A stretch of DNA of 64,000 nucleotides, from contig CACKGF010000002.1 in NCBI GenBank assembly GCA_902599625.1, forward strand, positions 241,829 to 305,828. Direction: 5' to 3'. The DNA comes from an uncultured Pelagibacteraceae bacterium (GTDB taxonomy: Bacteria > Pseudomonadota > Alphaproteobacteria > Pelagibacterales > Pelagibacteraceae). Positions 60,657-64,000 of the stretch are shown in pieces. The translations under genes and the position numbers were made by a program. Numbering within the stretch: position 1 is the stretch's first letter; each line of letters opens with the position of its first letter. A model generated the notes under the pieces. It searched no databases. It saw only the letters and a list, made by a program, of their open reading frames with translations, and was not told the DNA's origin.

Positions 60657-61644
60657 GACTAAATCAATTATATCAAAAAAAATTTTATTTTGGTACGATA
60701 ATAATAAGAGAATTCTCCCATGGAGAAAAAATAATTCTAAGGAACAAAAACTTTATTTCACGTTGGTTAGTGAATTTATGTTGCAACAAACTCAAGTTTC
60801 AACTGTAATTCCTTATTTCAAAAGATTTGTGCAAAAAATTCCAAACTTTAAAAAGTTGTCTAAAGCAAATGACCAAACACTAATGAAGTTGTGGGAAGGA
60901 CTGGGTTACTACTCTAGAGCTAGAAATCTAAAAAAATCTGCGATAATGATCAATGGTAAATTTGGTGGAACTTTACCATCCAATATTGAAGATTTAAAAT
61001 CTTTGCCTGGAGTTGGTGACTATACGTCTACTGCAATAATGGCTATTGCTTTCAATCAAAAATTTATTCCTTTGGATGGAAATGTTGAAAGAATTCTTAA
61101 AAGGGTTCTATATCTTAGAAGCGAAAAAGCTATATTAAAAGAAAATATGCAAATTTCAAAAAAATTTTTTGGTTTATCAGAAAGAGCAAGTGATTATGCT
61201 CAAGCTATAATGGAATTAGGTGCTTTAGTATGCAGGCCCACCTCTCCATTATGCGACAAGTGTCCAATAAGAATAAATTGTATTTCATATAAACGAAAAG
61301 ATTTTTCTTTAATAAAAAAAACAAAAAAAAATAAGATCAAATATTTTGAGGCAAATATTTATATAAATGAAAATAAAATGTTATTAGTTAGAAATAATAA
61401 ATTTAACTTTCTTAAAAATTTATTAATCTTTCCGATGAACGAAATAGATAAGTCAAAATTTAACTCTTCACCAAAAGTAAAAACAAAAATTAAGATATCT
61501 AATATAGATATGAATATTGTAATTAATAAAAATAAAATTAAATCAACAAATAAAGGCTTAATTTTAAACCGAAAAAAAATATTAAGTGAAGTAATACCAT
61601 CTTTTACAAAAAAATTATTTAGAGTAGCTTCAAGTAATGTATGA
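60655..61644 (+). CDS. mutY: A/G-specific adenine glycosylase MutY
   Basis: The protein has LPWRKNNS, EFMLQQTQVSTVIPYFKRF with the catalytic glutamate, the helix-hairpin-helix LPGVGDYTSTAIMAIAF with the following aspartate (PLDGNVER), and the iron-sulfur loop CRPTSPLCDKCPIRINC. A C-terminal NUDIX-like domain, which recognises 8-oxoG, follows but is short and divergent. It removes adenine mispaired with 8-oxoguanine. Length is 329 residues. The start codon overlaps that of dciA and the stop overlaps the next gene as ATGA. Confidence 0.95.
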   Translation: MTKSIISKKILFWYDNNKRILPWRKNNSKEQKLYFTLVSEFMLQQTQVSTVIPYFKRFVQKIPNFKKLSKANDQTLMKLWEGLGYYSRARNLKKSAIMINGKFGGTLPSNIEDLKSLPGVGDYTSTAIMAIAFNQKFIPLDGNVERILKRVLYLRSEKAILKENMQISKKFFGLSERASDYAQAIMELGALVCRPTSPLCDKCPIRINCISYKRKDFSLIKKTKKNKIKYFEANIYINENKMLLVRNNKFNFLKNLLIFPMNEIDKSKFNSSPKVKTKIKISNIDMNIVINKNKIKSTNKGLILNRKKILSEVIPSFTKKLFRVASSNV

Positions 61645-62783
61645 AAAAAATTGGAATTATCGGAGCAGGGATATCAGGATTATACATAGCTAATCTTTTT
61701 AAAAAAAACCCTAAATATCAAGTATCAATTTTTGATAAAAAAAATTCTCTTAATCTAGATGAGGGGTACGGCGTACAATTATCTACAAATAGTGTCAAAC
61801 TTTTAAATGAAATTGGATTTAACAAATTAGAAAAAAACGAAAAATTTAATCCAGAAAAAATAAATTTTTATTCAAAAAAAGATGAAGATAAAATATGTGA
61901 ACTAGATATATCTGAATTTAACTCAAATGATTGCAAGTATACTACTTTGAAAAGATCTACTTTGATCAATTTTCTTAAAAAAGATTTAGAGGATTTGATC
62001 AAAACAAATTATAGTGTATCGAAAATTGATCAAGAGCAAGAAAAAATAAAACTTACTTTTGAAAATAAAGAAACTCACAAATTTGATTATCTAATTATTT
62101 CTGAAGGGGTTTTTTCAAAAAGTAGAAATCTTGTTTCAAATAAACAAGTTCAACCAAAATATAATAATACTTTAGCTATAAGGGGAACGATACCGGCAAA
62201 TTCAAATATAATTGATAAAAAGAATATTTTGTTATTTTTGGGCTCTGATTTTCATCATGTAATTTATCCTATTTCTCCAGGTGGAGATTTAAACTTAATA
62301 GCTATAATGAAATATAAACTTTCAGCAGACGAACAGAAAAATTACTCATTGTTTAATGATAAATTATTTATACAAAAAATTTTGGAAAATATTCCTCAAG
62401 AGAACAAAGAATTTTTTAATAATCTTAAAGAATTAAAAATATTTCCTGTGTTTGTTAGTGATAATTTTTTTGAAGTAAAAAATAAGAACATTTATTTAAT
62501 AGGAGATGCTTTTTTTGCTTTTCCACCATCATTTGCTCAAGGTGCATCTCAGTCTATAGAGGGCGCACATGAACTATTTGCTAGTATAGAAAATAATTCC
62601 AATGCTAACTTTTTTAAAAATAGGGTTAATAAAACAAAAATGGTAAATAATAGATCAAAATTGAATCAGTTTGCTTTTCATCTATCAAATCCTTTAACTG
62701 TATTTCTTAGAAATGTTTTTTTAAAAAAATTAGTAAAAAATAAAAAGTTTTTAGAAAGTTATTTAGGAAAAATTTATAGGTAA
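61641..62783 (+). CDS. FAD-dependent monooxygenase (UbiH/PHBH-like family)
   Basis: The FAD Rossmann motif IGIIGAGISGLYIANLFKK lies at the N-terminus and the second FAD motif IYLIGDAFFAFPPSFAQGAS near residue 290, with the middle LIISEGVFSKSR. This layout is that of aromatic-ring or ubiquinone-pathway hydroxylases. The C-terminus lacks an obvious membrane anchor. It is coupled to mutY by an ATGA overlap and converges on ccrM with a ten-base overlap. The substrate is unknown; a ubiquinone role is possible because ubiA is nearby but not adjacent. Confidence 0.82.
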   Translation: MKKIGIIGAGISGLYIANLFKKNPKYQVSIFDKKNSLNLDEGYGVQLSTNSVKLLNEIGFNKLEKNEKFNPEKINFYSKKDEDKICELDISEFNSNDCKYTTLKRSTLINFLKKDLEDLIKTNYSVSKIDQEQEKIKLTFENKETHKFDYLIISEGVFSKSRNLVSNKQVQPKYNNTLAIRGTIPANSNIIDKKNILLFLGSDFHHVIYPISPGGDLNLIAIMKYKLSADEQKNYSLFNDKLFIQKILENIPQENKEFFNNLKELKIFPVFVSDNFFEVKNKNIYLIGDAFFAFPPSFAQGASQSIEGAHELFASIENNSNANFFKNRVNKTKMVNNRSKLNQFAFHLSNPLTVFLRNVFLKKLVKNKKFLESYLGKIYR

Positions 62784-63853
62784 CTTTTTGACAAGAATTT
62801 TTGTCTTAAATTATCTATTGGCACGAAAGTATCTCCTAATTCGCAATGCCAATAAGTCCATCCATTACAGCTTTCTGCTCCTAAAATTATAGCTGCAACC
62901 TTATGAATTGAACCTTCAGTTTGAGCATGTTTGATACTCCCATCAACCATAATTTTTGCACTGATTTTCTTTTTATTATCAAAAATAATAGTGCCAGGCT
63001 TAATTATTCCCAATTCAACCAGTGAACCAAAAGGTATTCTTGGTTTGGATTTATTATTTTTAAGTGTATCTAAATAATGATCTTCTATTGGTTTTGTATT
63101 TTTCAATCTTTGTTCGGCAGCTTTGAAATAGGATTTTTCTTTTTCTATACCGTAATAATTTCTACTCAATTTTTTTGCAACCGTTGCAGTTGTGCCTGAT
63201 CCCAAAAATGGATCAAGAATTAAATCATCTTTATTTGAAGTTGCTAATAAAATTCTATGAAGTAAAGCTTCTGGTTTTTGTGTAGAATGAACCTTCTTTC
63301 CATTTTTTTTTAAACGTTCTGTTCCATTGCAAATGGGCAAATCCCAATTAGATCTCATTTGTAAATCATCATTCAAACATTTTAATGATTGATAATTAAA
63401 AGTATATTTTGAATTCTCTGATTTTGAAGCCCAAATTAAAGTTTCATGAGCATTAGTAAATCTTGTCCCTCTAAAATTTGGCATTGGATTTTTTTTGTTC
63501 CAAATTACATCATTTAAAATCCAAAACCCTAAATTTTGAATAGCTGTACCAACTCTAAATATATTATGATAACTTCCTATAACCCAGATTGCTCCATTCT
63601 TTTTTAAAATTCTTTTACACTCACTTAACCACGCATATGTGAATTCGTCATATTTCTTAAAACTTTCAAATTGATCCCATTTATCATTTACTGCATTAAC
63701 TTTTGATCTATCTGGTCTAGTTAGTTTATTTTTTAGTTGAAGGTTGTAAGGCGGATCTGCAAAAACTAAATCGAAAGTCTCATCTGGAATTCTTTTCAAT
63801 TCTTTAAGACTGTCTCCGTTAATAATTTTGTTTTTTAAATCTAACTCTCTCAT
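62774..63853 (-). CDS. ccrM: CcrM-type adenine DNA methyltransferase (GANTC)
   Basis: The 359-residue beta-class enzyme has motif IV FADPPYN at 31-37, the RPDRSKVNAVNDKWDQF loop and motif I DPFLGSGTT at 214-222. A C-terminal domain follows (RIPFGSLVELGIIKPGT and ESCNGWTYWHCELGD) that is specific to the CcrM group, which methylates the adenine of GANTC. No restriction partner is next to it, as expected for the orphan, cell-cycle-linked enzyme of alphaproteobacteria. Its upstream region contains three GANTC sites, two inside a likely promoter. Confidence 0.95.
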   Translation of the reverse strand: MRELDLKNKIINGDSLKELKRIPDETFDLVFADPPYNLQLKNKLTRPDRSKVNAVNDKWDQFESFKKYDEFTYAWLSECKRILKKNGAIWVIGSYHNIFRVGTAIQNLGFWILNDVIWNKKNPMPNFRGTRFTNAHETLIWASKSENSKYTFNYQSLKCLNDDLQMRSNWDLPICNGTERLKKNGKKVHSTQKPEALLHRILLATSNKDDLILDPFLGSGTTATVAKKLSRNYYGIEKEKSYFKAAEQRLKNTKPIEDHYLDTLKNNKSKPRIPFGSLVELGIIKPGTIIFDNKKKISAKIMVDGSIKHAQTEGSIHKVAAIILGAESCNGWTYWHCELGDTFVPIDNLRQKFLSKSYL

Positions 63854-64000
63854 TTTAAAAGAAACAATTAGACTCTAGGTCGGAGTCCAGGTCAACTCAT
63901 GATTGAATTAATTTTGATTAATTGTGCCTTCGATTATTTGGGACTCAATATATTGTGTATTGGTTTGAATGTTTTTCTATGATGTTTTGTAATTCCAAAT
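63854..64000. other. ccrM upstream intergenic region to window edge
   Basis: Beyond the promoter there is a TTAA-N6-TTAA element (about 63907-63920), one base short of the CtrA consensus TTAA-N7-TTAA, and an additional GANTC. No ORF, tRNA or terminator is visible before the window ends. Confidence 0.5.
63867..63895 (-). promoter_or_regulatory. ccrM promoter containing two GANTC methylation sites
   Basis: On the minus strand TTGACC, a 17-base spacer and TCTAAT match sigma70 boxes at five of six positions each. One GANTC lies within the spacer (63883-63887) and another overlaps the -10 box (63871-63875). The -10 ends 13 bases before the ATG. A third GANTC lies upstream at 63942-63946. Confidence 0.65.

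Follow-up and report, generated by a model that had tools for sequence, protein, structure and literature searches.

GANTC sites inside the ccrM promoter of SAR11 bacteria: a conserved arrangement through which CcrM methylation may feed back on its own gene

The window, by which we mean the whole stretch of 64,000 nucleotides analyzed, corresponds to G000:C2:241829-305828 of a SAR11 genome whose family name, Pelagibacteraceae, comes from named near-identical loci. On its reverse strand, positions 62774 to 63853 encode a protein of 359 aa with N6_N4_Mtase and RAMA domains, identified by Pfam search (PF01555, E=1.8e-68; PF18755, E=1.5e-15). The product scores 573 bits with the NCBIfam CcrM model, under the equivalog cut-off of 830; it has the N6_N4 methylase fold and a C-terminal RAMA domain and aligns to CcrM over its full length. 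Judged by these features the gene is a genuine ccrM, encoding the GANTC adenine methyltransferase. Upstream, in the same direction and across a gap of 80 bases, is the 3' end of a ribonuclease HII gene (positions 63934 to 64000, reverse strand, running past the window; ORF L112 1263-1847), which we take to be rnhB on account of its own sequence and because rnhB and ccrM are known as a gene pair; its stop codon is at 63934-63936. At the other end, ccrM and a convergent FAD-dependent monooxygenase-like gene (61641-62783) share 10 bases at their stop codons (62774-62783).

The first-pass annotation had proposed a ccrM promoter of the form TTGACC-N17-TCTAAT, with one GANTC in the spacer and one overlapping the -10 element, and the sequence bears this out. 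All on the reverse strand, the -35 element TTGACC occupies 63890..63895, the 17-base spacer 63873-63889, and the -10 element TCTAAT, with C at -11, 63867..63872. The spacer site (GACTC) is found at 63883..63887, and the second site (GAGTC, 63871..63875) shares two bases with the -10 element. The third GANTC, noted 55 bases further upstream, is present at that position (63942..63946, reverse strand), not in the intergenic region but inside the last codons of rnhB at its 3' end; it is retained in only part of the relatives, and many of them have another upstream GANTC about 65 bases before the ccrM ATG. From the position of the -10 element, transcription would be expected to start at 63859..63861 on the reverse strand, 6-8 bases before the ATG, giving a nearly leaderless transcript, and no Shine-Dalgarno sequence was seen before ccrM. 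Sigma70 prefers A at the second -10 position (-11), and a consensus promoter scan called no promoter at TTGACC-N17-TCTAAT because the proposed -10 element has C, not A, at -11; this C follows from the second site in genus g1 being displaced by one base relative to the layout seen across the class.

An imperfect inverted repeat, TTCAATCATGAGTTGAC, lies over the -35 element (63891..63907, reverse strand) and is conserved in genus g1; on sequence grounds it is possibly the operator of a further factor. Several other genera have a similar repeat over or behind the -10 element: among SAR11 genera (L131, L133, L142 and others), the inverted repeat TTCAAY-N5-RTTGAM of ccrM promoters is located at the -35 element in some and in the -10/start region in others. 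We rejected a TTCAAY-N5-RTTGAM regulon: over the patterns tried, three places in the genome matched, a count near that estimated for chance, and they form no coherent set, the other two being located before an aldehyde dehydrogenase-like gene and before a transporter gene.

This genome contains few GANTC (1,589 occurrences in 1,078,715 bases, or 1.47 per kb), and the window as a whole is depleted in them, with 97 observed versus 179 expected. The probability of at least two GANTC in a 29-base stretch is about 7e-4, and that of at least three in 80 bases about 2e-4. Among 1,669 genomic occurrences of TTGAC, only that of the ccrM promoter has two GANTC in the 24 bases after it; the composite promoter pattern has one match in the window, and 100 shuffles gave none. 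The presence of two GANTC in the ccrM core promoter is not due to chance. A second genomic TTGAC...GANTCTAAT (C2:85597) was discarded as a like promoter, being inside a coding frame. Many intergenic GANTC near gene starts in G000 are parts of tRNA T-arms (GTTCGANTCC), so that simple counts of promoter GANTC in this genome are inflated. Three GANTC spaced 12 and 11 bases apart were also observed at G000:C3:69436-69463, in the gap separating a LexA/UmuD-like gene from a divergent one.

The annotation had named conservation of the sites in relatives with the same promoter as a check, and conserved they are. The 110 ccrM upstream regions sampled from SAR11, mostly from genus g1, reduce to 50 distinct core promoters: 44 have two sites, six have one and none has zero, so at least one site is found in 50/50. 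The sequence TCTAAT is found in 49 of the 50, the -10-overlapping site in 48, and the spacer site, at spacer offset 2 or 3, in 46; TTGAC is unchanged in all 104 retained SAR11 loci. On a CcrM tree of these 104 loci, we count 1, 1, 0 and 2 changes at the four fixed positions of the spacer site, as against 7 at its N and 13-23 at the three preceding bases. The spacer site as a whole sits at either offset 2 or offset 3, having switched 7 times on the same tree, and the spacer stays at 17 bases. Such a pattern is what one expects when a methylation site within a functioning promoter is under selection. In genus g1 the -10 site shows no variation at its N, so that its conservation, taken by itself, could have another cause.

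Outside g1 the arrangement is found in various states. Both sites are present in the ccrM promoters of g6, g11 and g13, and g4 has two at a different spacing; mostly the spacer site is kept in g2, g5 and g10, and mainly the -10 site in g3, g7 and g8. In the sister family f2 both sites are found in 6/9 loci and the -10 site in 9/9. Genus g9 and three of the five g12 genomes examined have lost the core-promoter sites despite keeping GcrA and CcrM, showing that the sites are not essential. Genomes G009, G021, G022, G031 and G047 (L142, L249, L251, L252 and L146), with CcrM and GcrA kept and a core promoter without GANTC, offer natural controls.

Beyond SAR11 we sampled 60 further alphaproteobacterial families. 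Both sites follow TTGAC in 24 of these, mostly with a 17-base spacer, and fixed GANTC sites inside the ccrM promoter appear to be a feature of SAR11 and of about half of the other families sampled. The pattern TTGAC-N14-GANTC was found in 27/60 class promoters, every one of which continues with A-N3-T, a plausible -10 element; a further GANTC is located 8-13 bases before TTGAC in 26/60. Across the class, the 180 bases nearest to ccrM on its upstream side contain 17.3 GANTC per kb, about six times the density of the rnhB side (2.9 per kb); four control palindromes before ccrM are not enriched (1.9-3.3 per kb). In these promoters each of the four letters is found as N at either site. A whole-genome pattern search of 114 class genomes gave 95 matches (about 14 with the reversed pattern), of which 27 are ccrM promoters and 26 end in TGATTC. 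For 22 of the 27 ccrM matches, the spacer site has an offset of 2, 3 or 4 and the second site follows at a distance of 11, 10 or 9 bases, respectively, which indicates that the 17-base spacing is retained across the class too. Phage-borne copies of the promoter were considered and set aside: three matches in IMG/VR have the wrong spacing and no ccrM nearby.

The annotation had also called for gcrA and ctrA to be looked up in the genome. A gcrA gene is present (G000:C8:2941-3372; PF07750, E=3.6e-38), as it is in 55/57 good-quality genomes of the family and in 128/147 of all family genomes; the SAR11 GcrA scores 117 bits with the NCBIfam GcrA model, below the cut-off of 280, and the parts of it that bind DNA and sigma align with the solved Caulobacter GcrA structures 7ye1, 5yiu and 5yix. 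CtrA is absent among the four OmpR-type regulators of this genome, which is 93% complete. Their best models are PhoB (over its cut-off), a sortase-system or CreB-like regulator, an OmpR-like one and a degenerate one, and the CtrA model reaches 115.8 bits on the third, versus a cut-off of 350; this agrees with published work on SAR11 (PMC2877005). A conserved CtrA box TTAA-N7-TTAA at the -35 element of ccrM was not found; a TTAA-N6-TTAA upstream of ccrM lies in an AT-rich gap and is not retained in relatives. With CtrA missing, the Caulobacter wiring, in which CtrA drives ccrM, cannot apply. SAR11 has kept CcrM and GcrA despite the absence of CtrA.

The ccrM gene of Caulobacter likewise has GANTC sites near its promoter. 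These sites, in work by Stephens from 1995, are reportedly 3' of the promoter, whereas those of SAR11 are inside it, and Caulobacter ccrM is activated by CtrA. Published Caulobacter models have ccrM transcription depend on the methylation state (PMC2217572, PMC8865702). The GcrA-dependent Caulobacter promoters ctrA P1, mipZ and podJ P2 are similar in having GANTC between or touching the -35 and -10 elements in a genome that encodes GcrA; promoters of Caulobacter with GANTC in this interval fire at a set time in the cell cycle, and the podJ P2 site at -24 (PMC4287350) is close to the position of the SAR11 spacer site. They differ in that SAR11 has two sites in one core promoter, and on ccrM itself. 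The SAR11 ccrM promoter has two hallmarks of a methylation-dependent sigma70 promoter under GcrA/CcrM control, namely GANTC between or overlapping -35 and -10 and an encoded GcrA. The extended motif YGAKTCK of the Caulobacter promoters, however, fits neither of its sites (gGACTCc and aGAGTCt) on either strand, and GcrA binding here is a prediction; YGAKTCK is not required in Brevundimonas (PMC7987155).

That ccrM can be a GcrA target through GANTC is already known as a broad idea. Adhikari et al. 2021 (PMC7987155) predicted ccrM as a core GcrA target, lost in Caulobacterales, on the basis of extended GANTC motifs across 13 species; they give few likely GcrA targets for Ca. P. ubique, and their score ignores site position. 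In comparison with that text, our analysis adds the fixed geometry, the dense sampling of SAR11 and the persistence of the sites without GcrA. In the literature that we searched, we came across no description of two sites at fixed positions in the core promoter, of this layout being found throughout SAR11 genus g1, or of its being kept in genomes lacking GcrA, and the fixed geometry and this persistence appear to be new. A parallel is found in the CfrBI restriction-modification system, where, by the title of a paper cited in PMC3874152, methylation at the system's own target site is involved in controlling expression; CfrBI shares with CcrM control of a methyltransferase system at its own target site, and differs in that CcrM is an orphan, cell-cycle enzyme.

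The conservation of the sites and the published work on Caulobacter suggest that methylation changes ccrM transcription, directly or via GcrA; which factor reads the sites, and in which direction the loop acts, we likewise infer. Our main reading, to which we give a probability of roughly one half, is that the ccrM promoter senses the methylation made by its own gene product, with GcrA and RNA polymerase as the likely reader in SAR11. N6-methylation at the spacer and -10-edge sites would alter the use of the ccrM promoter by RNA polymerase, probably acting together with the sigma70 cofactor GcrA. Replication of the locus would leave both sites hemimethylated, the hemimethylated promoter would be transcribed, CcrM would then remethylate both sites, and ccrM expression would drop again. 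In Cand. P. Giovannoni NP1, 3477/3482 GANTC are methylated, with less methylation near the origin (PMC9516812).

We favor this sign, by which replication would open the promoter and CcrM would close it, because of the Caulobacter GcrA binding data, in which GcrA protects hemimethylated DNA to a different extent than fully methylated DNA (PMC3667746), and because of the model in which Caulobacter ccrM is on when hemimethylated and off when fully methylated (PMC2217572). A loop of the opposite sign is almost equally possible, given that in Caulobacter both ftsZ and mipZ are activated by methylation (PMC3708114). It would have GcrA-sigma70 activate ccrM on methylated DNA only, so that methylation sustains itself as an epigenetic on-state, and we hold this tentatively as a possibility: GcrA prefers methylated DNA, binding methylated GANTC at ctrA P1 and mipZ (PMC3667746), and a similar tandem precedes the division gene ftsB in other alphaproteobacteria, whereas the hemimethylated-active Caulobacter model speaks against it. 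Chromosome position was tried as a clue to the sign and dropped, for the distance of about 220 kb between ccrM and parB (about a third of a replication arm; four SAR11 genomes, the count not crossing a contig end) fits either.

Which protein reads the sites is a separate matter. At class level two sites are found in 18/47 genomes with GcrA and in 7/13 without GcrA detectable at the PF07750 cut-off; among the latter, G231 is a single contig of 100% completeness with both sites. Keeping the sites thus does not depend on detectable GcrA, which weakens GcrA as their only reader, and on sequence evidence GcrA may not be the only one. Methylation could act with no cofactor, N6-methyladenine at the spacer and -10 edge altering sigma70 binding or melting, as a self-limiting thermostat like that of restriction-modification systems. 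The seven GcrA-less genomes fit such a direct effect; so do the position of the -10 site, which abuts the -12/-11 bases where melting starts, and the SAR11 promoter without A at -11, which should be weak and easily modulated. Against this, GcrA is encoded in almost every SAR11 genome and a diverged GcrA has possibly been missed in the class genomes concerned, and we regard a purely direct effect as doubtful. A further version, which we consider unlikely, makes the ccrM promoter with its tandem GANTC a self-contained methylation sensor ancestral in Alphaproteobacteria, with m6A tuning sigma70 RNA polymerase without CtrA or GcrA and GcrA layered on later.

It is improbable that methylation is irrelevant and that the sites belong to another protein's binding site or to a terminator repeat of rnhB: here the two sites do form a 7-pair hairpin followed by T-rich DNA, which a scan called terminator-like, GAGTCTAAT at the -10 element is fixed as a block in genus g1 and the conserved inverted repeat overlaps the -35 element, but the hairpin is not conserved, the N letters it requires being complementary in only 13/46 distinct SAR11 spacer sites (N=C against G) and 8/27 class promoters, the spacer-site N varies while GA and TC stay, and of five palindromes tested GANTC alone is enriched.

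Few cells in the sea are as abundant as those of SAR11. With its own methylation sites in the promoter, SAR11 ccrM would provide a minimal way of linking DNA methylation to replication; the fixed geometry is suited to a direct in vitro test of the effect of m6A on bacterial transcription, for which single-site, no-site and GcrA-less relatives supply natural variants as controls.

The matches that end in TGATTC include a TTGAC...GAATC...TGATTC tandem before an ftsB-like gene in eight alphaproteobacterial families (L313, L315, L317, L324, L325, L334, L338 and L340; match near base 1501). The next gene is ftsB-like in eight of these matches, with three confirmed as DivIC (PF04977). In SAR11 itself ftsB was rejected as a second target, as it overlaps the upstream enolase gene and is without such a promoter. 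Outside SAR11, the ftsB tandem may well be a second methylation-sensing promoter, going by its sequence, and it appears to be new.
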